Assembly (NCBI GenBank): GCA_013152815.1
Contig: JAADFO010000005.1
Span: forward strand, 1-35,583
Reading direction: 5' to 3'
From: Nanobdellati archaeon
GTDB taxonomy: Archaea > Nanobdellota > Nanobdellia > Woesearchaeales > JAADFO01
Length of the DNA stretch: 35,583 nt
Position 1 is the first letter of the stretch; every line of letters starts with the position of its first letter. The notes beneath the pieces were generated by a model. It saw only the letters and a list, made by a program, of their open reading frames with translations, was not told where the DNA came from and did no database searches. Shown piece after piece: positions 12,275 through 35,245 of this stretch. A program made the position numbers and the translations under genes.

Positions 12275-12282
12275 TTTATATA
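12275..12282 (+). promoter_or_regulatory. TATA box of the cis-prenyltransferase
   Basis: TTTATATA. It overlaps the upstream ATG at 12282, so transcription probably starts near 12302. This favours the ATG at 12306 as the true start. Confidence 0.6.
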
Positions 12283-12305
12283 TGAACAGGGTTTTTTCAA
12301 CTTCC

Positions 12306-13022: not shown

Positions 13023-13096
13023 CTTGCAGACAGTCAGATGCTCTTCCTGCCTGTTTCTTTCCGCTTCTTTCTTTTCTTCGTCGCCTTCTTCGCTAC

Positions 13097-13105
13097 CTTT
13101 AAATA
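13097..13105 (+). promoter_or_regulatory. TATA box of the mevalonate decarboxylase gene
   Basis: CTTTAAATA centred 27 nt before the ATG at 13128. It supports that start over the ATG at 13110 used by the ORF track. Confidence 0.6.
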
Positions 13106-13127
13106 ATTCTTGTTTTTCATCTTTGAC

Positions 13128-14096: not shown

Positions 14097-14170
14097 CAAG
14101 AGTATCGATGCGGGCATCCTCTTTGAAGGATGAACACCTTTCTGCAATGGACAGAGAGCAGGAACAAGGG

Positions 14171-14240
14171 CAGTCAAGGGCAGTCAAGGGCAGTCAAGGG
14201 CAGTCAAGGGCAGTCAAGGGCAGTCAAGGGCAGTCAAGGG
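14171..14240. repeat. 10-bp tandem repeat, seven exact units
   Basis: CAGTCAAGGG repeats seven times without interruption, flanked by degenerate part-units. It lies in the spacer between mvaD and the phosphomevalonate kinase gene, 42 nt before the preferred PMK start. There are no spacers between units, so it is not a CRISPR. It is probably length-variable. Confidence 0.95.
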
Positions 14241-14282
14241 CAGTAAGGACAATCAATGGCAATCAGTGGCAAGGTGAATACG

Positions 14283-15371: not shown

Positions 15372-15384
15372 CGAGTAACATAAG

Positions 15385-15394
15385 CTTTAAAAAG
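15385..15394 (+). promoter_or_regulatory. TATA box of the HMG-CoA synthase operon
   Basis: CTTTAAAAAG. The predicted transcription start is near 15415, leaving a leader of about 22 nt with a G-rich run (AGGGGGAT) before the ATG at 15438. It probably drives HMGS, thiolase, DUF35 and HMG-CoA reductase together. Confidence 0.55.
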
Positions 15395-15437
15395 ACGCCT
15401 GGACCCTTGATTTTTCAGGGGGATTTGTGATTGCATC

Positions 15438-16565
15438 ATGGCAGGTATCATCAGCTGGGGGAGCTATGTGCCCCGTTACCGTATCAAGGTCGAAGAGATC
15501 GCATCAGTCTGGGGAATGGATCCCGAGAAGGTCAAGGCAGGACTCAGGATACAGGAGAAGGCTGTCCCTGATATCGATGAGGATGCGGCGACCATTGCCG
15601 TGGAATGCGCAAGGAACGCCCTGGCAGTGGATGTTCCCTCTGACCCTGCTTCAGCCGATTCTTCTTCCTCTTCTTTCCCATCTTCCTCTGTCTCTTCTTC
15701 GTCTTCTTCATCTCTCCCTTCTCCTCTGGCAGAGCACATCCACGCTATCTATATCGGCAGCGAGAGCCATCCCTATGCTGTGAAGCCGACAGGCACCATC
15801 GTCGGCGAGGCCATCGGTGTGGGAAACGACTACACGACAGCAGACTTCGAGTTCGCCTGCAAGGCAGGCACCGCAGCCATGCAGGCAGCGTTGGCCATGG
15901 TGAGATCGGGCATGGCGACCTTTGCTCTCGCAGGCGGCGCAGACACTGCCCAGGCAGCCCCTGGCGATCCTCTTGAATACACTGCTGCGGCAGGCGGCGC
16001 TGTATTCATCATCGGCAAAGACCATGCAGTCGCAGAGATCAACCACACGCTCTCCTTCACCTCTGACACGCCGGATTTCTGGAGACGGGCCCACGAGCGT
16101 TACCCTTCCCACGGCGGGCCGTTCACCGGTGAGCCGGCCTATTTCCGGCATGTGATCGCATCAACCAAGAAGCTTATGCATGTGGCCGGAACAACACCCT
16201 CTGACTATGACCATGTCGTCCTGCACCAGCCCAACGGCAAGTTCCCTGCGCGGGCTGCAGCACGGTTGGGCTTCACCAGGGAACAGATGGCCCTGGGCAT
16301 GCTCGTCCCGCTCATCGGCAACACCTACTCAGGAGCAGCCATCCTTGGCCTTGCCAACGTGCTTGATAATGCAAGACCCGGCCAGCGTGTGTTGTTGACC
16401 TCCTATGGATCCGGAGCCGGCAGCGACAGCTTCGACATCACCATCACCGACAGGATCGTTCCTGTCCAGAAACAGATACGTCCTCTGCAGTCCTACATCG
16501 GCAGGAAGACCTATCTCGACTACCCTGCATACCTCCAGAAGGTGCGGGCCATCCAGCATACCTGA
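15438..16565 (+). CDS. Hydroxymethylglutaryl-CoA synthase, archaeal type
   Basis: A 375-residue HMG-CoA synthase, which condenses acetyl-CoA with acetoacetyl-CoA. Motifs: [19 protein letters not shown] at the start, [20 protein letters not shown], the nucleophile in [11 protein letters not shown] (Cys141), and HQPNGKFP with the catalytic histidine. The archaeal enzyme is known to form a channelling complex with thiolase and a DUF35 protein, and both genes follow directly. One oddity: residues about 68-97 hold a Ser-rich insert ([14 protein letters not shown] and more Ser) between a core helix and the [10 protein letters not shown] strand, where relatives have a short loop. It is first in an operon with its own promoter. 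Confidence 0.94.
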
Positions 16566-16620
16566 GCTGCCTGAGTTGCCTGAGTTGCCTGAGTTGCCTG
16601 AGTTGCCTGAGCTGCCTGAG
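16561..16620. repeat. 9-bp tandem repeat starting at the HMGS stop codon
   Basis: CCTGAGTTG-type units (TTG or CTG) repeat six times and a seventh is degenerate. In the HMGS frame every unit holds a TGA, the first being the actual HMGS stop. In the thiolase frame the array is open and would read PELPELPEL. It fills most of the spacer before thiolase. Confidence 0.93.
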
Positions 16621-16647
16621 ATACCGGAGAACAACGAGGTTATCAAG

Positions 16648-17802
16648 ATGAGAAAAGTTGCCATCATCGGAGTGGGCATGACCCCGTTCGGTCAGCTCTG
16701 GGACCGTTCCCTGATATCCCTGGCTGTGGAAGCAGGGGCAAAGGCAATCCACGATGCTGGGATCACCCACAAAGACGTCGGAGTGCTCTACGGCGGCACC
16801 ATGTCTTCCGGCCTGTTTTCCGGCCAGGAACACCTGGCAAGCATGTTCGCTGACCATTCAGGCTTTGACCACATCCCCAGCGTCCGGGTCGAGGCTGCCT
16901 GCGCATCCGGCGGTCTGGCGCTGCGCCAGGCGTATATTGACGTGGCCTCTGGTGCCCATGATATCGCCGTTGTCGGCGGGGTGGAGAAGATGACCGACCT
17001 CGGGATCTACCCGGTGACCAAAGTCCTATCGACGGCTGCCGATGCTGAGCGGGAATCTTCCCTCGGCGTCACCTTCCCGGGAATCTATGCCATGATGGCA
17101 CGCCTCCACATGCACAAGTATCATACCACCGAAGAGCAGCTTGCGATGGTCGCGGTGAAGAACCATGCCCATGCCATCCATAATCCCCACGCCCAGTTCC
17201 GCCGGGCCATCACTGTCGACCAGGTCATGGGGTCGGTGAAGATAGCCGACCCGCTCAAGCTCCTGGATGCCTCTCCGGTCTCTGACGGCGGCGCTGCCCT
17301 GGTCCTTGCCGACGAGAAGACCGCTCGCAGCCAAAGTGACACTCCTGTCTGGATAGCAGGCAGCGGCCATGCCACCGATACCATCGCGCTCCATGACCGG
17401 GAAGACATGCTGAGCATGAGATCGACGGTCTATGCCGCAAGAGACGCCTTCAGGCAGGCAGGCCTCTCTCCAAAGGACATCGGCATGGCCGAGCTTCACG
17501 ACTGTTTTACCATCGCCGAACTCCTGGCCCTCGAAGACCTCGGGTTTGTCGACAGGGGGGCATCAGGCAGCTTCATCGAACAGGGCCAGGCTCATATCGG
17601 CGGAAGCCTCCCCATCAACCCTTCGGGCGGGCTCAAGGCTAAAGGACATCCGGTCGGCGCCTCAGGCATCGCCCAGGCCATCGAGTCGGTCCTGCAGCTG
17701 CGGGGGGATGCAGGGTTGCGCAACACCGGGGCTGAGATCGCCCTGACCCAGAACGTCGGCGGTTCAGGAGGGACCGCAGTGGTCCACATATTCAGGAGAT
17801 GA
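16648..17802 (+). CDS. Acetyl-CoA C-acetyltransferase (archaeal thiolase)
   Basis: A 384-residue thiolase that makes acetoacetyl-CoA from two acetyl-CoA. Features: VAIIGVGMTPFGQLWDRS, the nucleophilic Cys85 in VEAACASGGLAL, ELHDCFTIAELLALED, PINPSGGLKAKGHPVGASG with the catalytic histidine, and TQNVGGSGGTAVVHIF at the end. The SCP-x-like form without the usual second C-terminal cysteine motif is typical of the archaeal complex with HMGS and DUF35. The ORF track runs back to 16405 across HMGS; the ATG at 16648 is preferred because it begins MRKVAIIGVG like relatives and has GAGGT 7 nt upstream. DUF35 follows 7 nt after the stop. Confidence 0.93.
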   Translation: MRKVAIIGVGMTPFGQLWDRSLISLAVEAGAKAIHDAGITHKDVGVLYGGTMSSGLFSGQEHLASMFADHSGFDHIPSVRVEAACASGGLALRQAYIDVASGAHDIAVVGGVEKMTDLGIYPVTKVLSTAADAERESSLGVTFPGIYAMMARLHMHKYHTTEEQLAMVAVKNHAHAIHNPHAQFRRAITVDQVMGSVKIADPLKLLDASPVSDGGAALVLADEKTARSQSDTPVWIAGSGHATDTIALHDREDMLSMRSTVYAARDAFRQAGLSPKDIGMAELHDCFTIAELLALEDLGFVDRGASGSFIEQGQAHIGGSLPINPSGGLKAKGHPVGASGIAQAIESVLQLRGDAGLRNTGAEIALTQNVGGSGGTAVVHIFRR

Positions 17803-17809
17803 ACACACG

Positions 17810-18220
17810 ATGGCTGTACCGAAATTCTGGCGGCAGATACCGGCGCTCTACAATCTCGAGGGCAGCGTCTGCGGATGTGGTGCGTTGGCCTTCCCTCCCC
17901 GGGAGGTCTGTCCGAAATGTCATGCTGTCGGCCTGAAGCCCCATCGCTTCAGGGGGAAAGGGACGGTCGAGACGTTCACCATCATCCGCACTCCGACAAC
18001 AGATCCTGAGGGAGAGAATATAGAGGTTCCGGCACGAAGCATACCCTATGTCATGGGCATCATCCGTCTTGAGGAAGGCCCTCGTCTCACAGCGCAGATT
18101 GTCGATGCCCGACCTGAGGATGTGAGGATCGGTGACCGGGTCGAGCTGGTCTTCCGCAAGCTATTGGAGAAAGGACCGAAGGGGGTTATCCAATATGGAT
18201 ACAAGTTCCGGCCTGTCTGA
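17810..18220 (+). CDS. DUF35 zinc-ribbon/OB-fold scaffold of the thiolase-HMGS complex
   Basis: A 136-residue protein. The N-terminal helix (MAVPKFWRQIPALYNLEGSV) leads into a rubredoxin-like zinc ribbon CGCG...CPKCH, then an OB fold (GKGTVETFTIIRTPT, YVMGIIRLEEGPRLTAQIVD, VELVFRKL). In the known archaeal complex this protein bridges thiolase and HMG-CoA synthase and shares a CoA-binding site so that acetoacetyl-CoA is not released. The gene lies right after those two. It overlaps the HMG-CoA reductase start by 26 nt, so the two are translationally linked. Confidence 0.93.
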   Translation: MAVPKFWRQIPALYNLEGSVCGCGALAFPPREVCPKCHAVGLKPHRFRGKGTVETFTIIRTPTTDPEGENIEVPARSIPYVMGIIRLEEGPRLTAQIVDARPEDVRIGDRVELVFRKLLEKGPKGVIQYGYKFRPV

Positions 18221-19460
18221 CAGAGACGCCCTTGAACGCTTTGTCGCAGATGTCAGAGAAGGGAAGCGGTCGCTGCGTGACCTTGACCAGGAAGGGAAGC
18301 CTGCTGCGGTCTCCCTGAGGAGGCATGTCCTGGGCACGCTCACCCATACTGATCTCACCCCGCTCACCGCAACCCATGTGGATGCAGAACATACCCTGTC
18401 AAACATCGAGAACATGTTCGGTTCCATAGAGATCCCTCTCGGCGCAGCAGGTCCGCTCCTGGTGAAAGGCCAGCATGCTCGCGGCCTGTTCTTCTTGCCT
18501 CTGGCGACCACCGAGGGCGCGTTGGTGGCTTCGGTCAACCGGGGCTGCAGGGCGCTCACCGCTGCAGGAGGCGCCATCACCGAGACGCTGCAGGATGCCC
18601 AGGCACGCTCGTTGCTCTTCGAGACAGCGGACGCGGAAAGCGCCCGTTCCTTCGTCTCCTGGCTGGAGCAGGAAGAGAACCGCCAGGTCATCTTCACCGT
18701 CGGACAGAAAGGGAGCAGGCATCTGCAGCTCGTCGGTCTGGAACCCTTTGTCCGGGAGAACCATGTCTGGCTCAGGATCACCGCGAAGACCGGCGATGCC
18801 ATGGGCATGAACATGATCACCATCGCAGGGAAGCAGATCGGCGACTATCTGGAGAAGAAGCATCCTGCGGTCACGTTCCTCTCAGAATCAGGCAATCTCT
18901 GCGTCGACAAGAAAGCGTCCTCCCTGAACCAGGAGAAAGGACGGGGGAAACGGGTCAGGGCCTGGGCAGTGTTGTCGTCATCCATCGTCGAGGAGGTCCT
19001 GAAGACCACTCCCGAAGCCATGGTCCGTCTCAACCGTCTCAAGAACCAGGAGGGCAGCAGGCTTTCCGGCTCGCTGGGAGAGAATGCGCATCATGCCAAC
19101 ATGGTGGCAGCACTCTTCATCGCGCTGGGCCAGGATGTCGCCCACACGGTGGACGGCAGCGTCGGCTGGACCAGGATGACGCAGGAAAAAGACAGCCTCA
19201 GGGTCGAGGTGGAGCTTCCTGCCTTGCAGGTCGGCACGGTCGGCGGGGGGACCGGGCTTCCAGGACAGCATGCCTGTCTGGAGATGCTCGGTGTCGCAGG
19301 AGGCGGCCATCCTGAGGGCAGCAACGGCCGCAAGCTCGGCGAGATCATAGCTGCAGGCGTCCTGGCAGGTGAGATATCCCTGATGGCAGCCCTTTCAACC
19401 CGGATGCTCGCAGCGGCCCATCAGAGGCTCAACAGAAACCCTGTGCAGCCGGCACCTTGA
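18195..19460 (+). CDS. hmgA: Hydroxymethylglutaryl-CoA reductase, class I
   Basis: A 421-residue NADPH-dependent HMG-CoA reductase, the committing step to mevalonate. Motifs: ENMFGSIEIPLGAAGPLLV, TTEGALVASVNRGC with catalytic Glu107, DAMGMNM for cofactor binding near residue 201, SGNLCVDKKASSLN with the catalytic lysine, GQDVAHTVDGS with the aspartate, and AAHQRLNRN with the C-terminal histidine. The soluble catalytic domain only is present; there is no membrane anchor, as in other archaea. The ORF track starts at 18132; ATG at 18195 is preferred, as it starts the alignable N-terminus and is preceded by a GGGGG run. It overlaps DUF35 by 26 nt, and its stop lies inside a 15-bp tandem duplication. 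Confidence 0.95.
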   Translation: MDTSSGLSDRDALERFVADVREGKRSLRDLDQEGKPAAVSLRRHVLGTLTHTDLTPLTATHVDAEHTLSNIENMFGSIEIPLGAAGPLLVKGQHARGLFFLPLATTEGALVASVNRGCRALTAAGGAITETLQDAQARSLLFETADAESARSFVSWLEQEENRQVIFTVGQKGSRHLQLVGLEPFVRENHVWLRITAKTGDAMGMNMITIAGKQIGDYLEKKHPAVTFLSESGNLCVDKKASSLNQEKGRGKRVRAWAVLSSSIVEEVLKTTPEAMVRLNRLKNQEGSRLSGSLGENAHHANMVAALFIALGQDVAHTVDGSVGWTRMTQEKDSLRVEVELPALQVGTVGGGTGLPGQHACLEMLGVAGGGHPEGSNGRKLGEIIAAGVLAGEISLMAALSTRMLAAAHQRLNRNPVQPAP

Positions 19461-19485
19461 GGAATCATCACTTGAGGAATCATCA
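19456..19485. repeat. 15-bp perfect tandem duplication at the HMGR stop codon
   Basis: CTTGAGGAATCATCA occurs twice with no gap. The first unit contains the TGA stop of HMG-CoA reductase. Confidence 0.92.
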
Positions 19486-19531
19486 GGATCGTCCAGGGCA
19501 TCATCACAGAGGTCATTGAAGGCTCATCGCG

Positions 19532-20551
19532 ATGATTGCGATGGGAAGTGGAGCGATGCAGACCATGGGGTATGGAACGGCAGGAACGGCAGGAACAGCC
19601 AAGGTACAGCAATCCATCGTGGCAGAGGCATGTGCAAAGGTCATCCTCTTCGGCGAGCATGGCGTGGTCTATGGAACAGAAGGCATCGCTGCCCCTGTCC
19701 GGTCGCTCAAGACCCGGATCATGATAGAGCCGGGTCAAGGACTTCAGGTGTTCTTCGATGGCGCTCCCGATTCCTCTGCCGATGAGCGGCATGAGCGACC
19801 TGGGCAGCAGGAGAAGGACCGCAGCATCATCGTCGAACTGGTCCTCTTCGCAGCCAGGAAACTGCGTATTGATGCTCTTGACGCCAGGGTCCATGTCTCT
19901 TCCACCATCCCCTTCAGTGCAGGACTCGGTTCCAGCGCTTCCCTTTCCGTGGCCATCCTTCGGGCACTGGCGGCCTTCGGCGGAAAAGACATATCCGACG
20001 ACATGATGGATGCGTTGGCCTTCTCCTGCGAGAGTCGCTTCCATGCGAAGCCGAGCGGCATCGACAATACGGTCATTGTGAGAGAGCAGGTCATCTCCTT
20101 CCAGGACAAGGCTTCTGTTCCCCTGTCTCTGGGGAAGCCCCTGACCCTGCTGATCGCGGATTCAGGCATCAGGGCAGATACCAAAGCTGTCCAGAAGACG
20201 CTTTCCCGGCAGTATCGGCAGCACAGCGCAGAGATGGAGGGCATCTTCAAGGTCATGGACGAGGTGGTGCAGAATGCGAAAGTCGCCCTCGTCGCCGGCG
20301 ACCTCAAAGAGGTGGGGAGTCTCATGAACCAGAACCATGGTCTTCTGCAGGACCTGGGCGTCTCGTCAGAGCCACTGGACACCCTGGTAAAGATAGCACG
20401 CGAGGAGGGGGCATCGGGGGCAAAGCTGTCCGGCGCAGGCAAAGGCGGCATCATCATAGCGTCGGTCCCGGATGACGCACAACAGAGTGACCGGATCAAA
20501 GGGGCGCTGGAAAAGCAGGGCGCCAAGGTCCATCGGGTGGTGATCGCATGA
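19532..20551 (+). CDS. mvk: Mevalonate kinase
   Basis: A GHMP kinase of up to 339 residues that phosphorylates mevalonate at C5. Motifs: ACAKVILFGEHGVVYG (catalytic-site lysine and the N-terminal strand), the phosphate loop IPFSAGLGSSASLSVAIL, KPSGIDNTV with the catalytic aspartate, and the C-terminal GAKLSGAGKGGI. The first about 29 residues are low-complexity (GYGTAGTAGTAK) and encoded by a short repeat. They look like extra sequence, so the true start may be the GTG at 19619 (MAEACAKVILFGEH, about 310 residues). The ATG at 19532 has GAAGG upstream, so both stay open. The 3' end overlaps the prenyl synthase by ATGA. Confidence 0.92.
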   Translation: MIAMGSGAMQTMGYGTAGTAGTAKVQQSIVAEACAKVILFGEHGVVYGTEGIAAPVRSLKTRIMIEPGQGLQVFFDGAPDSSADERHERPGQQEKDRSIIVELVLFAARKLRIDALDARVHVSSTIPFSAGLGSSASLSVAILRALAAFGGKDISDDMMDALAFSCESRFHAKPSGIDNTVIVREQVISFQDKASVPLSLGKPLTLLIADSGIRADTKAVQKTLSRQYRQHSAEMEGIFKVMDEVVQNAKVALVAGDLKEVGSLMNQNHGLLQDLGVSSEPLDTLVKIAREEGASGAKLSGAGKGGIIIASVPDDAQQSDRIKGALEKQGAKVHRVVIA

Positions 20552-21696
20552 GCAGGCAGACCATCCCGTCGCTCAGACGCAGGATAGACGATGCTCTGGC
20601 CACGTTCCTCGACGAGCAGATTGAGCAGATTGTCCGTGTCCAGGATGATCCCCTCGCTTCCTCTGTCATGCCCTCTGTCAGGGAATGCTATGATATCATC
20701 AGAGCATACACCCTTCGCGGAGGAAAGCGATTGCGTCCTCTTGCCTTGCTCCTTTCTTACAGGGCGGCAGGAGGGACCGACATCGAGAAGGCATTGCTGC
20801 CTGCAGTGGGCATCGAACTCCTGCATACCTATTCGCTCATCCTCGACGACCTCATGGATGAGGACGACCTTAGAAGGTCTCATCCCTCGGTGCATGCTGT
20901 CCTGCTGCGCCTGTTCGACGGGCGTCCTGTCAAGAAAGATATCCATCCTGCCGATCCTCCCTTGCTTCATGGGCCGGCGGGTACCTCGCCGGGTATCCGG
21001 CTCTTCGCAGGGCAACCTGAACGCTTCGCAGCATCGTTCTCCATCATGATGGCCAATGTCACCATGCTGCTCTCTCGCAAGGCCTTCCTGGTCTCTTCCT
21101 CTTCGCCAGGGCAGCGGCTTGCCATGCTCCAGCTGGTCAACAGGGCAGATGAGCTGCTCTATCATGGCCAGATGATGGACATGGCTGGCGAGCAGGAAGC
21201 GTCCCTCAGCAGGGAATGGTATCTTAAGATGATACAGAACAAGACAGGGACCCTGTTCGGGCTGGCGTTCCAGCTGGGAAGCCTCCTTGCAGGGAACGAT
21301 CAGGGCACCCAAGGAACCTATTGGCAGACCGGCATGGAACTGGCCCGCGGCTTCCAGATAAGAGACGACCTCAAGGATGTCAAAGGAACCAAGGGACGGA
21401 AGAAAGGGACCGACATCATCAAGAGGAAAAAGACGCTGCTCTTCATCGAGGCCATGGACAGGGCAGATAAGGGGCAACAGCAGGTTCTGAAGTCCATATT
21501 CTCCAAGCCCGCCGTGACTGACAGGCAGGTGAAAGAAGTCATTGCCATCATGGAGCAGACCGGCGCGGTCGAGGCGTGCAGAAGCATGGTCCGACGTTCT
21601 TTGACGGAGGCCCGTTCCCTGGTCGAAGATATCGCCTTCTCCCATGATGATCTCCTGAAATCATTTCTCTCACAGATGGTCGAGGATGCGTCATGA
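20548..21696 (+). CDS. trans-Prenyl diphosphate synthase (GGPP/FPP synthase type)
   Basis: A 382-residue polyprenyl synthetase that joins IPP to allylic diphosphates for archaeal lipids. Motifs: LRGGKRLRPLALLL, the first aspartate-rich motif LILDDLMDEDDLRR near residue 100, and the second, QIRDDLKDVKG, near 270. The tyrosine five residues before the first motif resembles the bulky residue that limits chain length in archaeal GGPP synthases, so a C20 product is the best guess. It is longer than usual: after DLRRSHPSVHAVLLRLF there is a segment of about 45 residues (DGRPVKKDIHPADPPLL and more), and the following helix has SIMMANVTMLL where a GD pair is normally found. ATGA overlaps join it to mevalonate kinase before and to the isomerase after. 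Confidence 0.9.
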   Translation: MSRQTIPSLRRRIDDALATFLDEQIEQIVRVQDDPLASSVMPSVRECYDIIRAYTLRGGKRLRPLALLLSYRAAGGTDIEKALLPAVGIELLHTYSLILDDLMDEDDLRRSHPSVHAVLLRLFDGRPVKKDIHPADPPLLHGPAGTSPGIRLFAGQPERFAASFSIMMANVTMLLSRKAFLVSSSSPGQRLAMLQLVNRADELLYHGQMMDMAGEQEASLSREWYLKMIQNKTGTLFGLAFQLGSLLAGNDQGTQGTYWQTGMELARGFQIRDDLKDVKGTKGRKKGTDIIKRKKTLLFIEAMDRADKGQQQVLKSIFSKPAVTDRQVKEVIAIMEQTGAVEACRSMVRRSLTEARSLVEDIAFSHDDLLKSFLSQMVEDAS

Positions 21697-22742
21697 ACGG
21701 CAGAGGAGACACCATGAGCAGGATACACCAGCGCAAGCAGAGCCATGTGGACGTGGCCCTGAACAAGGACATCTCTTATCATAGGTCTTCCGGGCTGGAG
21801 CGTTACGCCTTCATCCATAATGCGTTGCCTGACCTGGACTTTAAGGAGATCGATACCTCTGCTGTCTTCCTCGGGAAGAAGATACAGCTCCCGCTCATCA
21901 TCTCTGGCATGACCGGCGGCCATGCTCTGGGCGCCCGCATCAACAGGAACCTGGCCATGGCAGCAGAGAAGACGGGCATCGCCATGGGCATCGGTTCCCA
22001 GCGCATCGCCCTTGAACATGAAGATATGCATGATATGGTGAGCAGCTCCTTCGATGTCCGAAAATACGCTCCCAGCATACCGCTGCTCGCCAATCTTGGT
22101 GCGGCTCAGCTCAACAAGGGCTATGGCCTGAAGGAATGCAGGCAGGTCGTCGAGCAGATAAATGCCGATGCTCTGGTCTTCCATCTCAACCCTCTGCAGG
22201 AGGTCATCCAGGGAGGGGATGTGGACTGGAAGGGCATCCTTCCGAAGATAGGACGGATAGTCAAGGCGCTCGATGTGCCGGTGATCGTCAAGGAGGTCGG
22301 CTTCGGCATCTCGGACGAGGTCGGCCGTAGGCTGGATTCTGTCGGTGTCCATGCCATCGATGTCTCTGGCTCTGGTGGCACGTCCTGGGCTGCCATCGAG
22401 AGCAGGCAGGGAAGCATGCGGCGACGCATGTTAGGCAGAAGGTTCTGGGACTGGGGCATTCCCACCGCAGAGGCATTGCAGATGAACAAGGGGCGTAGGA
22501 CGAAGCTCATCGCAGGCGGCGGCATCCGGAGCGGCCAGGACATGGCGAAATCCATCGCGTTGGGTGCCGACTACTGCACCATGGCCTCCCCTTTTCTCAA
22601 GGCAGCTGCCGATTCTCCGCGAAAGGTCATGGAACTCATCCTGTTCCTGGAGCTCGAGCTCAGGACAGCCATGTTCGGCATAGGAGTAAAAGACCTGAAG
22701 ATGCTGAAAGGAACACCTTCCCTCCGCAGGCTCACTCCCTGA
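21693..22742 (+). CDS. fni: Isopentenyl-diphosphate delta-isomerase, type 2 (FMN)
   Basis: A 349-residue TIM-barrel FMN enzyme that interconverts IPP and DMAPP. Motifs: RKQSHVDVAL at the start, LIISGMTGGHALG, GIGSQRIAL, LLANLGAAQL, FHLNPLQE (substrate and metal site), VIVKEVGFGIS, DVSGSGGTSWA and IAGGGIRSGQD (flavin phosphate site). This fits archaeal IDI-2. The start at 21693 overlaps the previous stop by ATGA; ATG at 21714 (MSRIHQRKQSH) with GGAG upstream is an alternative. It ends the isoprenoid cluster, converging on cutA with a 20-nt gap. It supplies DMAPP for the synthase directly upstream. Confidence 0.95.
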   Translation: MNGRGDTMSRIHQRKQSHVDVALNKDISYHRSSGLERYAFIHNALPDLDFKEIDTSAVFLGKKIQLPLIISGMTGGHALGARINRNLAMAAEKTGIAMGIGSQRIALEHEDMHDMVSSSFDVRKYAPSIPLLANLGAAQLNKGYGLKECRQVVEQINADALVFHLNPLQEVIQGGDVDWKGILPKIGRIVKALDVPVIVKEVGFGISDEVGRRLDSVGVHAIDVSGSGGTSWAAIESRQGSMRRRMLGRRFWDWGIPTAEALQMNKGRRTKLIAGGGIRSGQDMAKSIALGADYCTMASPFLKAAADSPRKVMELILFLELELRTAMFGIGVKDLKMLKGTPSLRRLTP

Positions 22743-26236: not shown

Positions 26237-29200
26237 CTACGTGTCGAAGACCATGACCACCATGTTGACGACCTCTCCGTTGAGGAGCACGACCTTTCTC
26301 GTCGTCACGACGTTCTTCGCGTCCACATTGATCCTTGCCCTGATGCCCGGAGCGGTGATGTAGGGCCCTGATTCTCCGCAGCAGGTGATGACATGGGTGC
26401 TGTTGTAGGGGATGGTGAACCCGGGAAGTCGTCCTTCGCACTCGTCCCTGGCCTGTTCGTTGTAGTAATAGCAGCCGAACTGGCCGTCGCAGGAAGGTTC
26501 GCAGATGCCGCCGAGGGTGCAGTCGCTCTGGCAGACGCTCCCGGAGACCGCGAGGGTGAAGTTGACGTTCACGGTCGCCAACGATTCCAGGTACTGGTCG
26601 AACACGGTCTTGGGCGTGTAATCGGTGGAGGATGCCACCAGGTCATAGGTGATCTTTGACTTGGCGAAGGAGCCGTACCAGCCGGTCCCGTCGGTATAGG
26701 TGTCTGTCGTCCTGTAGCCGATGAACTCGACCTTGGCTCCTGCTATGGGCGTTCCCATGCTGTCGAAGACATAGCCTGTGAAGTAGCCGTCGCAGTCCGG
26801 GTCGTCTGCGTCGATGAGCAGGTCCCCGTCATCGTCGATGCCGTTGAAGCAGTTTTCCACCGTCTCGTTCCAGGCGTCGCAGTATTCGGTGATGCTGTCA
26901 TCGTCGGCGTTGCCGTGGTATCCCTGGATATAGCAGACTCCCTGGTCGACGCAGTCGTCGGGACGGGTGCAGTAGGCGATGTCAGAGGTGTTGGTCTGGC
27001 AGGCATAGAACTGGCCGTTGTCGTAGGAGTCGTCCCACTCGGTCGCAGAGATGTTGACCGTCTCTCCGTCGTGGGTGTAGCAGTCATCGCATACTTCTGG
27101 CGACGCTCCATCGTCAGGCGGTCCGCTGTCTTCATGCATGTAACAGTCGGGGTCATCGTTGTCGATGAGATGGTCTCCGTCATCGTCCTGCTGGTTGTTG
27201 CAGATCTCCTGTTCCTGGCCTTCCCTGTGCTTGCCGTAGCAGTCCGGGTCCTGCATGTCCTTTGCCCCGTCATTGTCGTCGTCCAATCCGTTGTCGCACT
27301 CGGTCTCCCATTGGTCGCTCTGGTTGGACTCCGTGTCGGTGTGGGGCTCTGCAGCAGGATCGTTCTTGATATCTTCCCATTCGTCGTCGTGGTTGGCGAA
27401 CCAGACATCGTCGGGGATGACCTCGCACTCTTTATAACGCTTGTAGAGGCAGACTTCCTCTCCTGGCTGGCCGCAGACCGATGAGCCGACGCAGGAATCG
27501 GTATTGTCGAGGCAGTCCGAACATTCACATCCTTCTCCCGGGTCGCAGGTGCCGTTGTAATCGCAGAGGAAATGGCTGTCGCAGGTCTCTTTGCAGCTTC
27601 CGTCATCGCAGAGGGTCAGTCCGATGTCGCAGAGGGTCGTGTTGGTGCACTGGCCTCCTCCCGCAGGATCGCAGATGAGACCGTCAAGGCAGGTGTCCGG
27701 CTCTCCGTAGCAGTCAGCGCAGAGGCAGCTCTCTCCTGTGTTGCATGTGCCGTCGTTGTCGCAGGAGGTCTCGTTGGTACACACTGCCAGGCATTGTCCG
27801 TCATCGCAGAGGTGGGTTCCATCTGGGCAGCCTTCATAGCCGCACAGCCCGGTGTCAGAGAGACAGATCTCGCCTGTGTCGCAGTGGTCTGTCTGGTTGA
27901 AGCAGTCTGCGCAGTTGCAGGTCTCTCCGAGGAACCAGTCGCATTTTGAGTTGTTGTTGCATTCCGGCTCGGGGTTGCAGTTCGCCCTGCAGACGCCGTC
28001 CGGGCAGAGATAGGTATCTGCCGGGCATCTTGGATAGGTGCAGTTTCCTGCTCCGTCGGGGTCGCAGATGAGGCCGACGTCGCAGCTGTCGTGCCAGCCG
28101 TAGCAGTCTGAGCATTCGCAGTTCTCTCCTGGTTCGCAGCTGTTGTCATTGTCGCAGAGCGGCTCGCCGCAGGGAGGTGTCTTGCAGACATTGCCAGGAC
28201 AGAGGGTTGTCCCTTCCGGGCAGCCGATGAGTTCGCATTTCTCGGTGTCTGCATCGCAGAGGTGTCCTGCTGCGCAGGTGTCCTGCTTGCCGTAGCAGTC
28301 TGAGCATTCGCAGTTCTCTCCCGGGTCGCAGACCGCATCGTTGTTGCAGAGTCCGCAGGAGCTTGAGCTGAAACAGTCTGAGCATTCGCAGTTCTCGTTG
28401 GCATCACAGGTACTGTCATAGTTGCAGGTGCCGCAGGAGGTGAAGCAGTCGTCGCAGGCACAGGTCTCCCCTGCGTCGCAGACGCTGTCATAGTTGCATC
28501 CTGGTGCTGGCTTCACGCAGTCAGAGCCGTTGAACAGTTCTCCGTCGCCGCAGCCGGGCCAGAACATGACCGAACCGGTGGGCGTGGTGAAGTAGAGGGC
28601 CTCTGCGCCTGCATCTCCTGGATAGCCGTCCTTGTAGAGTCCTGCATAGGTCGCGTCGGCGGTCTCGCCGAGGCAGTCTGAGGAGATGTCAGGGACTGTC
28701 CATGCCTGGCAGTTGCCTGGTGCAGAGCAGGTCCCGTAGATGCCGGACATCTCGTTGTTGTTATGGGTGATGGCGCATTTCGCGCTTGCAGCGTCCACCT
28801 GCACATAGGCGGTCGCAGGGCAGTTCCCATGATAGACGGCGTTGATGGAGACCGTATCCCCTTTCCTGCATCCGTCGGGTCCGCAGTTGGGGCTGATGCT
28901 GACCGAGTCAAGATAACAGCAGGGCGTGTTGTCCCAGCCGGATGCTGTGCAGACCGATTGGGCGCAGTTCTGGTTGTAGTCGATGGTGGCGTTGACATAG
29001 CCTCCTGCTGAGCAGCTCTCGCCGTAGTAGCAGGCGCCGTCCATTCCATTGTTGTAGCCGTCGTCGAAGCAGGAATCGGTCCCGGTCGCGCAGGAGGTCG
29101 TCTGTTGGTATGTGCAGGAGGCAGCCTCAGAGCTGGCATCGCATCCTGCGTTGCACACGCCTCCGGTGGCGGTGAAGTCGTTCTCTGTGAGACAGGTCTG

Positions 29201-32200
29201 GCCGCATTCTCCGCTTGTGCACTGCTGGTTGCACGTCCCCTGCAGGACGCAGAAGGTTGTGCCTGTTGAGTATAATCCTCCTTCGCAGGTCGGGCACCAG
29301 TCGCATCCGGTGCTTGCGCCGCAGCTGGGTTCGTCCTGGAATGCCATGCATTCAGGGCAGAGGGTGTTGTCCCAGCCAGAGGTGGTGCAGATGGCAGCAT
29401 CGCATTTTCGGTCGGTGTCGACCGAGCCAGCGACATAACCTGATGAGGAACAGGACTCGCCGAAGTAGCAGTTGTCGCCCTCTGCATAGGGGTTGTCGAA
29501 GCAGCTGGGGCTTCCCTGGGCGCTGCAGTCGACTGAATTCTGGTACTGGCAGTTGTTCCCTGCATCACAGCTTGAGACGCAGGACGTTCCTTCCACCTTC
29601 CAGTCTGACGGATTCTCGCAGGTGGCGCCGCAGGATTGGTCGGTGCATTGGTAGAGGCTGCTGCACGTCCCCTTTGCTGTGCACCGGTCAGGGCCCTGCG
29701 AATAGCTGTTGTTGACATCGCAGGATGTGCACCATTCGCAGTTGTTGTCTGCTCCGCAGGTTCCTGCATCGCCATAGGAGTCGCATCCGTTGCTGCAGGC
29801 TCCGTTGTCCCATCCCATGTTGGTGCAGATGGATGCGCTGCATTGCTTTGCTGTCGTGTCTCTGACGCAGTTCTGCTGGCTCCAGCCGGTCGTGGTGCAG
29901 CTGACATCGCAGCTGTACCAGCAGTCCTGGCCGCTCTCGTAGAAGGTCTCTGGCCGGGGTGTCGATTCAGAGGCAGGGGACAGTCCTGTCTGGCTGCAGC
30001 TCTCGCCGTAGTAGCAGGAGTCCACGCCGACGATGGCGCCGTTGTCGTAGCAGCTTGAGGTGCCGGCAGCACAGCTCTCGTTGGTGGCGAACTGGCAGGT
30101 GGGATCGCAGTTGGCGAGGCACGACCCACCGTTCTCGATATAGGACAGGGAACTGTCGCACTCGGCCAGGCACTCGCCGGCGACACATTGGTAATTGCAG
30201 TTTCCGGCAGCTACGCACCTGTTCAGGCCGCCGGAATACCTGTTGTTGGAGCAGGCCTGGCACCAGTCGCACTGGTTGTCGCCTTCACAGGTGGAAGAGC
30301 TGCTGTATACTGAGCAGGCGCAGTCCTGGTTGTCCCATCCTGAGCTGGTGCAGACCGAAGAACCACACTGCTTGCTGAAGTCGGTGCTGCATCCGCTCTC
30401 GGTCCAGCCAGCGGAAGTGCACTGGACGTTGCAGCCGTAGTAGCAGGCGTTGCCCTCGTCATGGTATGCCCTGGGCCTGGACGCGTTCGCGGTGGGCGGC
30501 GTGTACCCTGCAGCGGTGCAGTCCTCGCCGGTGTAGCAGATGTTCGCGACCTCCACCCCGTCATCATGACAGCTTGCGGTGCCCTGGGAACAGGAGACCG
30601 TGCCGAGATACTCGCAGATGCCGCCGTCGCAGTTGGACTGGCAGACCCCTCCGGTGTCGTCGAAGTCGCTCGCCTGGTCGCAGCTCGCGCCGCAGGCAGG
30701 GGTGGAACAGGTTGCTGCGGCGCAGGATCCTGCGTTGACGCAGGATGAGACATCGCCTGAATATTTGTGGTTGGCGTCGCACTGTTCGCACCATTCGCAG
30801 TTCGTGTCGGTGCCGCAGGAATAGGAGTTGGTGTAGCTGGTGCAGACAGGGCAGGAGGAGGCGTCCCAGCCGGTGGAGGTGCAGGTCGCGGTGGGGCAGG
30901 GCTTGACCGAGGCGTCCTGGGATGAGGGTGCGTGATAGCCGGTGGCGTCGCAGCTCTCTCCGAAGTAGCAGACATCATTGACCGTATCTTCATAGCCGTC
31001 GTCGAAGCAGTCGCCGCTTCCCTGGGAGCAGCTTGCTGTTTGGGTGTAGGAGCAGCTGGTGGTGTCATCGCAGCTCCAGCTGCAGGTGTCGGCAGGGCTT
31101 CCTGCAATGACATCGAAGCCTCCTGGCGTGTCACAGGTGGCGCCGCAGTTGCCAGCGACGCAGCTGTAGCAGTTGCCGGCGAGGACGCAGCTGTTGGGGG
31201 TGGCTGACTGGCGGTTGCCGCTGACCTCGCAGTTCTGGCACCAGTCGCACAGGCTGTCATTCTCGCAGGTTAGCTCGTCTCCATGGGGTGCGCAGGGGTT
31301 GGAAGGGTCGATGCAATTGCCGTTGCCATCACATTGACAGTCTGAGCCGCTGCAGCCGGTGGAGCCGAAGCAGGACTCGTCGGTCTGTCCGGACGGGACG
31401 TTCTCAAGTCCGCAGTTTCCGTCGCAGGTGGGTTCCTGGCAGACAGGATCGTTGCAGGGTGTCAGGTCGACCTGCGCGCAGTAGCCGCTGTTGCAGACAT
31501 AGCATTCTGAACATGCTGCGCCTTCATTCGCCGTCTGGTAGGACCAGCCATCGGCAGTGTCGCAGCTCGGCCCGGAACGGCAGGTATCGTCGTAGAAGGA
31601 ATTCGCAGGTGGTGGCGCGTCACAGGCGCTGTTGCAGCAGTTGCCTGACCCTGCGCAGGTGGCGCCGTCTCCGCAGGACGCGGTATCCTGGCAGTCGACG
31701 AGGTTGTTGGCGTTGTCGTCTATCTCGTTGGTGCAGATCTCTCCGCAGAACGATGAGCAGTCCGGGTCGGTGCAGTCGGCGTTCCCGTCGCAGTCGTTGT
31801 CATAGCCGTCCTGGCATCGTGCCTGGGTGTTCTCAGCGACCGATGATTGGGTGGTGGATACCTGATGGCCTCCGTCATAGATGCAGTAATAGGGTGTGCC
31901 TTCGATGGAGAAGCTTCCGCCGCAGCCGTTGTTCGTCACATAGAAGTTGTCGCTGGTCAGGGTGTCGCAGGTCTTGGTGTCGACCTGGCAGCAGTCCTGT
32001 CCTGAGCAGCTGCTGGAACAGGTGGATGCGGTCGGCTCTGATTCGCTGATGGTCGGGCCGGTCGTGTCATCATAGCTGTCGCAGGCTATCCTGGTCGCCG
32101 GGGTGTATCCCGTTGCCTGGCAGTCCTCGTTGATCAGGCAGTCCGAGCCCGAGAGATAGCCGTCGTCGAAGCAGGAGCTGCTCGTCCCGTCGGCGGTGCA

Positions 32201-35200
32201 GTCTGACGCGTCTTCCCACTGGCAGGTGTCGGCAGTGTCGCAGGAGTTCCGGCAATATCCTCCCGAGGCATCGACGTTTGTTGTCGTGTCGCAGACAGCG
32301 CCGCATTGTCCCTCGGCGCATTGGTAATCGTTCGGGCAGCTGCCTGTATCGTAGCAGCCGTCGATGGCGGTCTGGTACTTGTTTCCTGAACAGGTGGATG
32401 CGGTGCAGTATTCGCAGCTGGAATCGGCGTTGCATGATGTGGTGTCCGTGCCGTAGACCGAGCAGGGACACGCGCTGTTGTCCCATCCCGATGTCGTGCA
32501 GCTGGCGCTTGCGCAGGCCTTGTTCGAGTCGGCGACGCAGTTGTTGCGGTCCCATCCCGTTGCCGTGCAGGTGACATCGCAGGAGAAGAGGCAATCGTTG
32601 CCGCTTGCGTAATAGGTGGTGGGCTTTGCCGTGTCTACGCTGGCCGGCGTGTAGCCCGTCGCATCGCAGCCCTCGCCGTAGTAGCAGGTGTTGCCGTTCT
32701 CAAAGCCGTTGTCATAGCAGGAGGAGGAGCTTCCGTCGGCAGCGCAGTCGTCCACCTGGGTGTAGGAGCAGGCGTTGGCCGCATCGCAATTGCTGCTGCA
32801 GCTTCCGCCGGTGGCGTCATAGTCTGCCGGGCTGTCACAGGTGGCTCCGCATTGTCCTTCTGTGCACTGATAGTTTGCTGTGCAGCTTTCTGTTCCGTCG
32901 ATGCACCATTCCTGCGGAGTCGTGTATTGGGCGCCGCTGCACTGTGCAGTGGTGCAGTAGTTGCATTGGCTGTCGGCCTGGCACTCGCTGGAGCCGAGGC
33001 CCGGGCACGTCCCTGAGCAGGCGCTGTTGTCCCATCCCGATGCGGTGCAGGTGGCCTGGGCGCATCCCTGGTCCGTGTCTTCGGTGCAGCTGCTCTGCTG
33101 CCATCCTGCTGTCGTGCACTGGGTCGTGCAGCCGTAGAAGCAGCTGCTTCCCTGCCCATAGTAGTCCGCAGGCCGCGGTCCGTCGTCCGAAGGGGGAGTA
33201 TATCCTGATGTGCTGCAGCTCTCGCCGTAGTAGCAGACGTTGCCTACCTCTGCGGGGTCGTCGAAGCAGCTTGATGATCCGCTGGCGCAGCTTGCGCTGT
33301 TCTGGTAGCTGCAGGTCGACGCGCTGTCGCAGCCCCAGGAGCAGGTCCCGCCGCTGGAGGAGAAGTCGTTCCCGTTGCACTCGGCGCCGCACTGCGGTTC
33401 CTGGCATTGGTATAATGATGAGCACGTCCCTGCATTGACACACCTGTTCACATCTCCTGAATATTTGTTGCCGTCGCAGTCGTTGCACCATTCGCAGGAA
33501 GATTGTGCATCGCAGCTCCCCGGTTCAACGTAGGCAGAGCATTGGCAGGGAGAATTGTCCCAGCCGGTCGTGGTGCAGGTGGAGGAGCCGCACATCTTGT
33601 TGGTGTCGAAGGAGCATCCGTTCCTCTGCCATCCTGATGAGGTGCATTGGATGTTGCATCCGTAGTAGCAGGTGTCTCCTGAACTGTAGCCGGTCGATGG
33701 TTTTGAGGTGTCTTCGGTCGGAGGGATGTATCCTGATGAGGCTGTGCAGCTTTCTCCGTAGAAGCAGCTGTTCCCTATCTCCAGGGCGTCATCTGAGCAG
33801 CTGGATGTCCCTGCAGAACAGCTGGCGAGCGAGTTGGTGCATCCTGATGCTGAGCATGATCCTTCGTTGTTGGCGCACTGGGTCCCGCCGATGATGTCTC
33901 CGCGGTCGTAGCAGGCGCTCGATGAGAGCTGCCATCCTGATCCTGTGCAGGCGTCGCTTTCCTTGTGATAACAGGTGTCGCTGCTGTCGTCGTAGCAGTA
34001 GGCGTTGGTATCGGTCGCAGAATAGCCTCCTTCGCAGCTGCTCCAGGCGATGGAATCCGGTCCGTCATCGCTGTCTGAATAGTATCCTGTCCCTGTGCAT
34101 TGCTCGTTGTAGTAGCAGAGCTCTCCGCTCACCTGGCCGCCGGAGCCGGTGGTGCAGCCAGAGCTGACGCAGGAACTGTAGGTGAGCGGTAAGATGTAGC
34201 CGGAGGATGAGCTGCAGTCCTCGTTCCAGTAGCAGACATGGCTGTTCGCATAACCATCGTCAGTGCAGATGCTGCTTCCGCTGGAGCAGCTCACCAGGTT
34301 GTCGGAGCATCCTGATGTGCCGCAGCTTGAGTCGCTGTCAGCGCATTGGTCGTTGTTGACGATGGTCCCTGTGGACAACAATGTGCAGGTCGTGGGGCTG
34401 CTGTAGCCAGAGGATGGGCTGCAGGATTCGTCGTAGTAGCAGGTGGTTCCCGTGGCATAGCCGTCGTCGGTGCATCTGTCTGATCCCTGCTGGCAGCTCA
34501 CCAGGTGATTGTTGCATCCTGTCGAGGCGCAGCCGGAATCGCTGTCTGCGCAGTTGTCTGGTTGTCCCTGGCTGCTCCTGTCCTGGACATCTCCTGTGCT
34601 GTAGAGATGGCATGTATCCGGCGCTTTGTATCCTGATGATGAGCTGCAGACCTCGTTGTAGTAGCAGGTGCTGCCGAGGGTTGCGCCGCTGTCGGTGCAG
34701 CTTGCTGTTCCCCTGTCCGGATTTTGGCAGTCCTCCAGATGGTTGGTGCATCCGCTCCCTGAACAGCCGGTCGTCTGGTTCACGCAGCGGTTGGGGCCGG
34801 TGAGCTGTTCTCCTGTGCTGTAGATATGGCAGCTCTGGACGCTATATTCTGCTGAGGAGGAGCAGATCTCATTATAATAGCAGGTCGAGCCGGATGTCTG
34901 GCCGTCATAGTTGCAGTTGGTGGATCCCGGCGCGCAATCTGTGATGTTGCTGCTTCCGTCGCAGCATTGTGCAGCATGTGCAGTCCCCTTGCCGTCGCAC
35001 TGGTCAGTGTTGGTGAACCAGCAGTCAGGTACTCTGCAGCAGTCGATGTCATCCGGTGAACAGGTCCCGGTGCTGTAGTCCTGGGGGCATCGTCCGTCAG
35101 AGACCGGTGAGCAGTCGTAGGGGATCTCGCAGATATCCACTCCGCCGATGCCCTCTGCGGTCTCCGCATGCTGGGAAAGGTAGAATAAGAACAGGATACC

Positions 35201-35245
35201 TAGCAGCAGGATGATGTTCACAGCGGTTCGTGCAGATTTGTTCAT
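26237..35245 (-). CDS. Giant secreted Cys-rich modular repeat protein (3002 aa)
   Basis: One uninterrupted frame. A signal peptide (AVNIILLLGILFLFYLSQHAETA) implies export; no C-terminal membrane anchor is seen. Modules by approximate residue: 110-470, short units with TCYYNEICSSSSGY and NHLVSCQ motifs; 470-2100, units of roughly 150-180 residues, eight with a GWDN/GWDA motif and eight with a YYGESC-like motif, plus CEWC and QCGATCD elements; 1140-1190, an aspartate-rich stretch DGYDNDCDGNADCTDPDC; 2100-2245, an Ig-like stretch; 2245-2590, seven EGF-like units with CDPGENCECSDC; 2645-2830, three more Ca-binding-type DDDNDG/DDDGD repeats; 2820-2895, a carboxypeptidase-regulatory-like domain (GTPIAGAKVEFIGYRTTD). 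About one residue in eight is Cys, mostly in close pairs, suggesting many disulfides. A surface fibre or adhesin is the best guess; I know no named homologue. Confidence 0.85.
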   Translation of the reverse strand: MNKSARTAVNIILLLGILFLFYLSQHAETAEGIGGVDICEIPYDCSPVSDGRCPQDYSTGTCSPDDIDCCRVPDCWFTNTDQCDGKGTAHAAQCCDGSSNITDCAPGSTNCNYDGQTSGSTCYYNEICSSSAEYSVQSCHIYSTGEQLTGPNRCVNQTTGCSGSGCTNHLEDCQNPDRGTASCTDSGATLGSTCYYNEVCSSSSGYKAPDTCHLYSTGDVQDRSSQGQPDNCADSDSGCASTGCNNHLVSCQQGSDRCTDDGYATGTTCYYDESCSPSSGYSSPTTCTLLSTGTIVNNDQCADSDSSCGTSGCSDNLVSCSSGSSICTDDGYANSHVCYWNEDCSSSSGYILPLTYSSCVSSGCTTGSGGQVSGELCYYNEQCTGTGYYSDSDDGPDSIAWSSCEGGYSATDTNAYCYDDSSDTCYHKESDACTGSGWQLSSSACYDRGDIIGGTQCANNEGSCSASGCTNSLASCSAGTSSCSDDALEIGNSCFYGESCTASSGYIPPTEDTSKPSTGYSSGDTCYYGCNIQCTSSGWQRNGCSFDTNKMCGSSTCTTTGWDNSPCQCSAYVEPGSCDAQSSCEWCNDCDGNKYSGDVNRCVNAGTCSSLYQCQEPQCGAECNGNDFSSSGGTCSWGCDSASTCSYQNSASCASGSSSCFDDPAEVGNVCYYGESCSTSGYTPPSDDGPRPADYYGQGSSCFYGCTTQCTTAGWQQSSCTEDTDQGCAQATCTASGWDNSACSGTCPGLGSSECQADSQCNYCTTAQCSGAQYTTPQEWCIDGTESCTANYQCTEGQCGATCDSPADYDATGGSCSSNCDAANACSYTQVDDCAADGSSSSCYDNGFENGNTCYYGEGCDATGYTPASVDTAKPTTYYASGNDCLFSCDVTCTATGWDRNNCVADSNKACASASCTTSGWDNSACPCSVYGTDTTSCNADSSCEYCTASTCSGNKYQTAIDGCYDTGSCPNDYQCAEGQCGAVCDTTTNVDASGGYCRNSCDTADTCQWEDASDCTADGTSSSCFDDGYLSGSDCLINEDCQATGYTPATRIACDSYDDTTGPTISESEPTASTCSSSCSGQDCCQVDTKTCDTLTSDNFYVTNNGCGGSFSIEGTPYYCIYDGGHQVSTTQSSVAENTQARCQDGYDNDCDGNADCTDPDCSSFCGEICTNEIDDNANNLVDCQDTASCGDGATCAGSGNCCNSACDAPPPANSFYDDTCRSGPSCDTADGWSYQTANEGAACSECYVCNSGYCAQVDLTPCNDPVCQEPTCDGNCGLENVPSGQTDESCFGSTGCSGSDCQCDGNGNCIDPSNPCAPHGDELTCENDSLCDWCQNCEVSGNRQSATPNSCVLAGNCYSCVAGNCGATCDTPGGFDVIAGSPADTCSWSCDDTTSCSYTQTASCSQGSGDCFDDGYEDTVNDVCYFGESCDATGYHAPSSQDASVKPCPTATCTSTGWDASSCPVCTSYTNSYSCGTDTNCEWCEQCDANHKYSGDVSSCVNAGSCAAATCSTPACGASCDQASDFDDTGGVCQSNCDGGICEYLGTVSCSQGTASCHDDGVEVANICYTGEDCTAAGYTPPTANASRPRAYHDEGNACYYGCNVQCTSAGWTESGCSTDFSKQCGSSVCTSSGWDNQDCACSVYSSSSTCEGDNQCDWCQACSNNRYSGGLNRCVAAGNCNYQCVAGECLAECDSSLSYIENGGSCLANCDPTCQFATNESCAAGTSSCYDNGAIVGVDSCYYGESCSQTGLSPASESTPRPETFYESGQDCWYSCDVSCTTTGWSQQNCVRDTTAKQCSASICTNMGWDNGACSNGCDSYGDAGTCGADNNCEWCTSCDVNNSYSQGPDRCTAKGTCSSLYQCTDQSCGATCENPSDWKVEGTSCVSSCDAGNNCQYQNSVDCSAQGSPSCFDNPYAEGDNCYFGESCSSSGYVAGSVDTDRKCDAAICTTSGWDNTLCPECMAFQDEPSCGASTGCDWCPTCEGGLYSTGTTFCVLQGTCNQQCTSGECGQTCLTENDFTATGGVCNAGCDASSEAASCTYQQTTSCATGTDSCFDDGYNNGMDGACYYGESCSAGGYVNATIDYNQNCAQSVCTASGWDNTPCCYLDSVSISPNCGPDGCRKGDTVSINAVYHGNCPATAYVQVDAASAKCAITHNNNEMSGIYGTCSAPGNCQAWTVPDISSDCLGETADATYAGLYKDGYPGDAGAEALYFTTPTGSVMFWPGCGDGELFNGSDCVKPAPGCNYDSVCDAGETCACDDCFTSCGTCNYDSTCDANENCECSDCFSSSSCGLCNNDAVCDPGENCECSDCYGKQDTCAAGHLCDADTEKCELIGCPEGTTLCPGNVCKTPPCGEPLCDNDNSCEPGENCECSDCYGWHDSCDVGLICDPDGAGNCTYPRCPADTYLCPDGVCRANCNPEPECNNNSKCDWFLGETCNCADCFNQTDHCDTGEICLSDTGLCGYEGCPDGTHLCDDGQCLAVCTNETSCDNDGTCNTGESCLCADCYGEPDTCLDGLICDPAGGGQCTNTTLCDIGLTLCDDGSCKETCDSHFLCDYNGTCDPGEGCECSDCLDNTDSCVGSSVCGQPGEEVCLYKRYKECEVIPDDVWFANHDDEWEDIKNDPAAEPHTDTESNQSDQWETECDNGLDDDNDGAKDMQDPDCYGKHREGQEQEICNNQQDDDGDHLIDNDDPDCYMHEDSGPPDDGASPEVCDDCYTHDGETVNISATEWDDSYDNGQFYACQTNTSDIAYCTRPDDCVDQGVCYIQGYHGNADDDSITEYCDAWNETVENCFNGIDDDGDLLIDADDPDCDGYFTGYVFDSMGTPIAGAKVEFIGYRTTDTYTDGTGWYGSFAKSKITYDLVASSTDYTPKTVFDQYLESLATVNVNFTLAVSGSVCQSDCTLGGICEPSCDGQFGCYYYNEQARDECEGRLPGFTIPYNSTHVITCCGESGPYITAPGIRARINVDAKNVVTTRKVVLLNGEVVNMVVMVFDT

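Follow-up and report, generated by a model that had tools for sequence, protein, structure and literature searches.

A giant cysteine-rich secreted protein of the Woesearchaeales with a conserved C-terminal domain linked to type IV pilus genes

A 3,002-codon gene at the end of a contig

The window, by which we mean the whole stretch of 35,583 nucleotides that was analyzed, is contig C5 of a 1.49-Mb Woesearchaeales genome. The gene considered here, P0001, is a single 3,002-codon ORF running from 35245 to 26237, ATG to stop. The original prediction had placed this frame exactly, leaving the strand unstated; it is the minus strand, and the plus strand across the span is interrupted by stops. A convergent methyltransferase-like gene lies downstream, while upstream the contig ends after 338 nt and the context is cut off. 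The parts of the protein and its truncated neighbor are listed in Table 1.

Table 1. Parts of P0001 and the adjacent upstream gene (positions in the window; aa, residues of P0001)
Feature	Positions	Strand	Basis
Whole gene P0001, 3002 aa	26237..35245	-	ORF listing; codon-position GC
N-terminal signal segment, aa 1-30	35156..35245	-	hydropathy 2.47
N-terminal region, aa 31-482: CEIPYDC...DGRCP...DIDC motif (common with orthologue), then short CYY[ND]E units	33800..35155	-	
Long unit, aa 483-659, 24 Cys; first ~80 residues confidently modelled as successive beta-hairpins	33269..33799	-	
Long unit, aa 660-842, 24 Cys	32720..33268	-	
Long unit, aa 843-1024, 24 Cys	32174..32719	-	
Interlude, aa 1025-1412: partial units and other Cys-rich sequence	31010..32173	-	
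Shortened long unit, aa 1413-1558, 20 Cys; without internal four-Cys segment	30572..31009	-	
Long unit, aa 1559-1731, 24 Cys	30053..30571	-	
Long unit, aa 1732-1914, 24 Cys	29504..30052	-	
Shortened long unit, aa 1915-2058, 20 Cys	29072..29503	-	
Region first called Ig-like, aa 2112-2240; kept in sister-genus orthologue	28526..28912	-	
Six CDPGENCECSDC-type units (GENCECSDC-type), aa 2241-2640; three in orthologue	27326..28525	-	
Asp-rich linker, aa 2641-2821, with two DNG.DDD.D-type motifs	26783..27325	-	
CarboxypepD_reg (transthyretin-like) domain, aa 2823-2898	26552..26779	-	Pfam; model
Conserved C-terminal tail, aa 2902-3002, 8 Cys and terminal predicted beta-hairpin; proposed pilus-docking domain	26240..26542	-	
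3' part of same-strand Cys/Ile-repeat gene, cut by contig end	35300..35583	-	ends 54 nt before P0001 start

The expectation of hundreds of cysteines in an exported archaeal protein was borne out: P0001 contains 369 (12.3%), together with 446 aspartate and glutamate residues against 75 lysine and arginine residues. Its N-terminus is signal-like, as anticipated (17-residue hydropathy of 2.47 from residue 7), and hydropathy detects no transmembrane segment in the rest of the protein, in agreement with the earlier remark that no anchor is visible; the N-terminal segment is itself possibly an uncleaved signal anchor.

P0001 is known from a single MAG contig and several antisense frames overlap it, which raises the question of whether it is a chimeric contig or a chance antisense frame. 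We regard such an artefact as scarcely credible and as already contradicted by the data. GC by codon position (48/57/76%) is coding-like along the whole gene, and third-position GC is 73-78% in each third, the same as in neighboring genes. Moreover, the cysteine number per long unit is constant, in many genomes of the order homologues of the tail occupy the same end of the protein, and an orthologue in a sister genus keeps the same order of parts; misassembly, the outcome that would have undone the original prediction, is contradicted by this collinear orthologue. Long near-identical DNA repeats able to collapse in assembly are absent from the gene, and most repeat copies, being 60-83% alike, are too diverged for such a collapse.

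Repeat modules and an orthologue in a sister genus

Three classes of cysteine-rich repeat had been predicted, and all three are present: short CYYNE units, long units marked by GWD./C[DE]WC/CGA.C motifs, and six GENCECSDC-type units. The EGF label attached to the last of these was not confirmed, since Pfam profiles gave no match in P0001 to EGF, nor to PSI/plexin or Ig domains. The stretch first called Ig-like has PEGA as its best match (E=0.073), and the aspartate-rich motifs exist as described, with no Pfam match for the calcium binding ascribed to them. A resemblance of the CEWC motif to PSI/plexin domains was also considered, and was discarded for want of Pfam support.

The seven alignable long units span 144-183 aa and share 45-50% identity. 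Five of them contain exactly 24 cysteines and both shortened ones exactly 20, the missing internal segment accounting for the four. A constant count of this kind is what disulfide-closed modules would show, and it is from this that we infer the bonds. AlphaFold modelling of one unit, a check proposed with the original prediction, was successful in part: the first ~80 residues form successive beta-hairpins (pLDDT about 80-94), and the remainder of the unit fails. A PDB sequence search with a long unit returned no match up to E=1, and Foldseek with the model, in which only those first ~80 residues are well built, found nothing below E=0.001. More distant long units occur in three other genomes of the same order (G019, G091 and G097), whereas viral contigs and phage records gave no match.

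The orthologue, a protein of 1390 aa, comes from G001, the only genome of the same family that was sampled. It has in common with P0001 the N-terminal motif, CDPGENC repeats and aspartate-rich motifs, with 37% identity in the central region and 35% at the C-terminus; the total number of cysteines is odd in both proteins. The long units of P0001 have no match in the orthologue, so that the array represents either an expansion in the lineage of P0001 or a loss in the other. The gene of the orthologue is followed by one for a small membrane protein and then by two more for cysteine-rich secreted proteins; pilin genes do not adjoin it.

A C-terminal domain family of the Woesearchaeales

The last ~180 residues of P0001 make up a transthyretin-like domain followed by an eight-cysteine tail that is new to Pfam and NCBIfam, which recognize the transthyretin-like part alone and nothing in the tail. 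The carboxypeptidase-regulatory-like domain of the original prediction is thus upheld: scanned alone, CarboxypepD_reg (PF13620) scores 33.3 bits against a gathering cut-off of 32.3 (28.7 bits in the whole-protein scan), and its predicted fold is transthyretin-like (5aq0, TMt 0.82). The tail cysteines are at positions 2905, 2909, 2915, 2919, 2925, 2936, 2955 and 2956; the structure model of this part has a pLDDT below 45.

A search with the last 181 residues found a match in 70 of 288 genomes of the order, that is, about a quarter. When a profile built from the final ~100 residues was run against 371 genomes of the phylum, 74 were positive; 73 of these are Woesearchaeales, and the single match outside is partial. 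In a collection of named genomes, scanned with a four-sequence subset of the whole-domain alignment, all matches belonged to Candidatus Woesearchaeota. Text searches of the literature, most subscription journals being outside their reach, returned no account of this family.

Across 41 tail proteins that were inspected, the tail runs to the stop codon at the extreme C-terminus; most have a signal-like N-terminus and almost none a further membrane segment. All eight cysteines are present in 34 members, while the other seven lack two, in every case those aligned with C2915 and C2956; this joint loss suggests that C2915 and C2956 are bonded to each other, and it may correspond to one event in one clade. 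P0001 belongs to the family by its conserved cysteine pattern ending at the stop codon. Two further candidate features were set aside: an even cysteine total as proof of full pairing is uninformative across the family (19 even and 12 odd among signal-bearing members), and a CY motif upstream of the transthyretin-like domain is conserved in just 13 of 41 members. At one locus (L114, 1587-2576), a large cysteine-rich insertion separates the CC pair of the tail domain from its final hairpin.

Conceivably, the tail serves surface proteins in general as a C-terminal signal for sorting or anchoring, read by a dedicated machine in the manner of type IX secretion C-terminal domains. This would suit its extreme C-terminal position on otherwise different proteins, as well as the situation in G157 and G276, where pairs of contigs (L115, L116, L118, L119) begin with an identical 141-bp tail-gene end and then diverge; these identical 3' ends of 137-141 bp at different loci suggest that tails are copied between loci, as a cassette. 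We nevertheless hold a sorting signal to be improbable, because such signals mark many proteins, whereas tail copies are usually one and at most three per genome, and because the frequent gene neighbors of the tail are pilus genes. Far less probable still is that P0001 is a secreted effector or inhibitor acting on neighbors, an idea that stems from a weak local likeness of the tail to plant type II proteinase inhibitors (profile E=0.05 to PDB 1fyb; 9 of 26 tail members match PF02428, best E=0.011). The match is not significant, covers about 30 residues and probably reflects shared cysteine spacing, and an effector would leave the linkage to pili unexplained.

Variable heads and linkage to type IV pilus genes

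The heads fused to the tail vary: they are disulfide-type arrays, and in some members von Willebrand A or laminin-G domains. Within pilus operons, the 441-aa tail protein of G007 has a von Willebrand A domain (3e-11) and that of G091 laminin-G (1.4e-24) with NHL repeats; the tail protein of G017 has three laminin-G stretches (2.4e-49). Such heads are as would be expected of adhesins. P0001 has neither domain, its head being the cysteine-rich array.

The genes directly 3' of tail genes often encode small proteins in which a single N-terminal hydrophobic segment follows KRG/KKG or KAQ, and which by their sequence resemble archaeal prepilins. In several cases the wider neighborhood includes further pilin-like genes, a T2SSE ATPase (6.6e-39) and T2SSF platform proteins (1.7e-11). 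One of the small-protein families, A6, was searched in the 288 genomes of the order with an alignment characterized by K[RK]GYFF.LDA; its members are called pilin-like by N-terminal pattern and gene context alone. It was present in 69 of 70 tail-positive genomes and in 124 of 218 tail-negative ones, and is therefore also common without the tail; the Fisher test of co-occurrence (p=2e-13) ignores kinship and MAG incompleteness. The two genes are neighbors in 31 genomes from 11 families, on one strand with the tail gene 5' of A6 and, counted between domains, 9-2012 nt apart (median 234). In the tail tree, pilus-linked members are scattered, which forces at least three changes, and P0001 groups with G001 (91/89) on an unresolved backbone. 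Taken as a whole, the genomic evidence that the tail family is linked to pili is strong, and we consider the link likely. A second class of A6 matches was seen in G133, G158, G011 and others, where positions 1-154 of the family are covered in frames of ~600-1500 aa, that is, as pilin-like N-termini on large proteins.

The locus and genome of P0001

P0001 does not adjoin pilin genes at its own locus. The product of the Cys/Ile-repeat gene upstream has lipoprotein relatives in G001 and G065, encoded in each case right beside a tail gene; in G065 the lipoprotein gene overlaps the tail gene, pilin-like genes follow at once, and the pairwise E-value with the protein upstream of P0001 is 2e-13. Cys/Ile repeats may be common in DPANN, so this neighbor link is supporting and not decisive.

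Type IV pilus machinery (T2SSE, T2SSF and pilin-like genes) is present in the genome of P0001, on another contig. Contig C44 contains an A6 gene, a second pilin-like gene, T2SSE (8.4e-38), two T2SSF genes and divergent pilins, as well as a 904-aa cytoplasmic-type protein of a kind seen in other clusters; no large secreted protein is encoded within this cluster.

A candidate pilus adhesin

By homology, there is in our judgement an even chance that P0001 acts as a giant secreted adhesin on a type IV pilus of this Woesearchaeal archaeon, a reading weakened by the detachment of its own locus from pilus genes. In the mechanism that we infer, the N-terminal signal would direct the protein out of the cell, and its modules would be closed by disulfide bonds, probably formed by a DsbA-like thiol oxidase system. 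The protein would be held by its conserved C-terminal tail, comprising the transthyretin-like domain, the eight-cysteine motif and the terminal beta-hairpin, which would dock on the minor pilin-like proteins responsible for priming or capping the pilus. Facing outward, the long cysteine-rich N-terminal array would then be the variable part that makes contact, enlarged in this lineage, and the pilus with P0001 at its tip would be used to touch other cells or surfaces.

The same detachment from pilus genes, found for both P0001 and its orthologue, would also suit an adhesin or sheath protein of the cell surface that has nothing to do with pili and is kept in place by an uncleaved signal anchor or by cysteine-rich self-assembly; the pilus linkage of its relatives would in this case reflect shared regulation or be inapplicable here. 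The N-terminal hydrophobic segment could indeed stay uncleaved, and the two additional cysteine-rich secreted proteins encoded after the small membrane protein in G001 point the same way. We consider this alternative unlikely, if worth serious attention, since the tail family co-occurs with pilin-like genes and often abuts them, and since adhesion-type domains are found on other tail proteins in pilus operons.

The pilus adhesin reading can be set beside the original interpretation, of which the exported cysteine-rich mosaic stands, cell or host contact is plausible and retention by a partner is possible, while the Ig, EGF and calcium-binding parts have no support from profile searches. That interpretation had overlooked the strand, as well as the existence of a conserved C-terminal domain, the recurrence of this domain across the order, the head fusions and the linkage to pilus genes; together these make the pilus a concrete candidate for the missing anchor.

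For the order as a whole, we tentatively propose, a little short of an even chance, that Woesearchaeales possess an adhesin family, so far undescribed, for the tips of type IV pili, with one conserved docking domain and exchangeable heads, an archaeal counterpart of PilY1 made of different domains and with P0001 as its largest member here. The exchangeable heads would be, with similar reserve, von Willebrand A, laminin-G or giant cysteine-rich arrays of up to ~1600 residues. Little is known of how DPANN archaea recognize other cells and keep hold of them, and the Woesearchaeota form a large, mostly uncultured group. With the tail profile as a sequence handle, candidate contact proteins can be listed throughout the order, and specific partner candidates are at hand in the A6 family and its neighbors. 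If true, this would provide a clear example, in archaea, of a pilus adhesin that is organized like PilY1 and built from other domains.

Comparison with known systems

Bacterial PilY1 has a signal peptide, a poorly conserved N-terminus (with vWFA in some), a well-conserved C-terminal domain and a gene accompanied by minor pilins (PMC7541494). PilY1/PilC1 and the tail family, P0001 included, thus have in common a secretion signal, a variable N-terminal head and a conserved C-terminus, and need no membrane anchor. PilY1/PilC1 genes lie beside minor pilins and many tail genes beside pilin-like genes, but the gene of P0001 does not. The conserved C-terminus also differs, being in the tail family a transthyretin-like domain with an eight-cysteine tail, and the PilY1 beta-propeller domain has no Pfam match in P0001 up to E=10. 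By analogy, the chances seem evenly divided that P0001, which is not itself a PilY1 member, works like PilY1.

Among archaea, DUF2341 'PilY-like' adhesins have been predicted at methanococcal type IV pilus loci (Makarova 2016, PMC4858521). These are likewise predicted pilus-tip adhesins encoded with pilus genes, but they have a different domain, not found by Pfam in P0001, and come from a different lineage; the term DPANN is absent from the text of that paper. In cluster 2 DPANN, conserved type IV pilus loci with coiled-coil proteins have been proposed to serve host contact (Hamm 2024, PMC11291902). The machinery is the same (CpaF-type ATPase, TadC) and Woesearchaeota are included among others, but the attachment proteins named there are coiled-coil and sigma-1-like, and the section consulted mentions no cysteine-rich tail protein.

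Large, partly cysteine-rich surface proteins of Ca. Huberiarchaeum crystalense have also been proposed to contact the host (PMC6792436). They are large and cysteine-rich like P0001, a likeness drawn from their description, but one of them is described as membrane-anchored with predicted calcium binding (PMC6792436). The SPEARE proteins are giant DPANN surface proteins of Nanohaloarchaeota (PMC6642349), and laminin-G domains are also found on some tail proteins; the SPEARE proteins, however, carry serine protease and restriction-enzyme domains and a membrane segment at the C-terminus, none of which Pfam and hydropathy detect in P0001.

Oxidative folding and other genes of the genome

A strong oxidative folding system had been predicted to accompany so many cysteines. 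The genome of P0001 encodes two DsbA-like proteins, one with CPYC and one with CPYT, and two DsbD/CcdA-like proteins, so that membrane thiol-redox machinery exists; this fits the prediction, of which the VKOR-like component was not found in the genome (90.8% complete). The CPYC DsbA-like gene (contig C60, L036, 1192-2037, minus strand) has a frame that breaks near 1507 and continues in another frame, which is either a sequencing error or a real frameshift. On contig C66 (L069, 2323-3513, minus strand), adjoining a CcdA/DsbD-like gene, we noticed by eye a gene whose 396-aa product combines thioredoxin-like segments containing CxxC with a cupredoxin-like stretch at its C-terminus and may belong to the extracellular redox system.

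A second giant surface-type protein is encoded in this genome by a 6210-codon open frame on contig C30 (from about 3971 onward; L030/L031), with several CarboxypepD_reg copies and a low cysteine content. Finally, the window itself contains on its plus strand (12282-22742) what appears by eye to be a mevalonate/isoprenoid cluster, with prenyl synthases, kinases, HMG-CoA enzymes and a type 2 IPP isomerase, and the organism's genome probably provides for its own isoprenoids.
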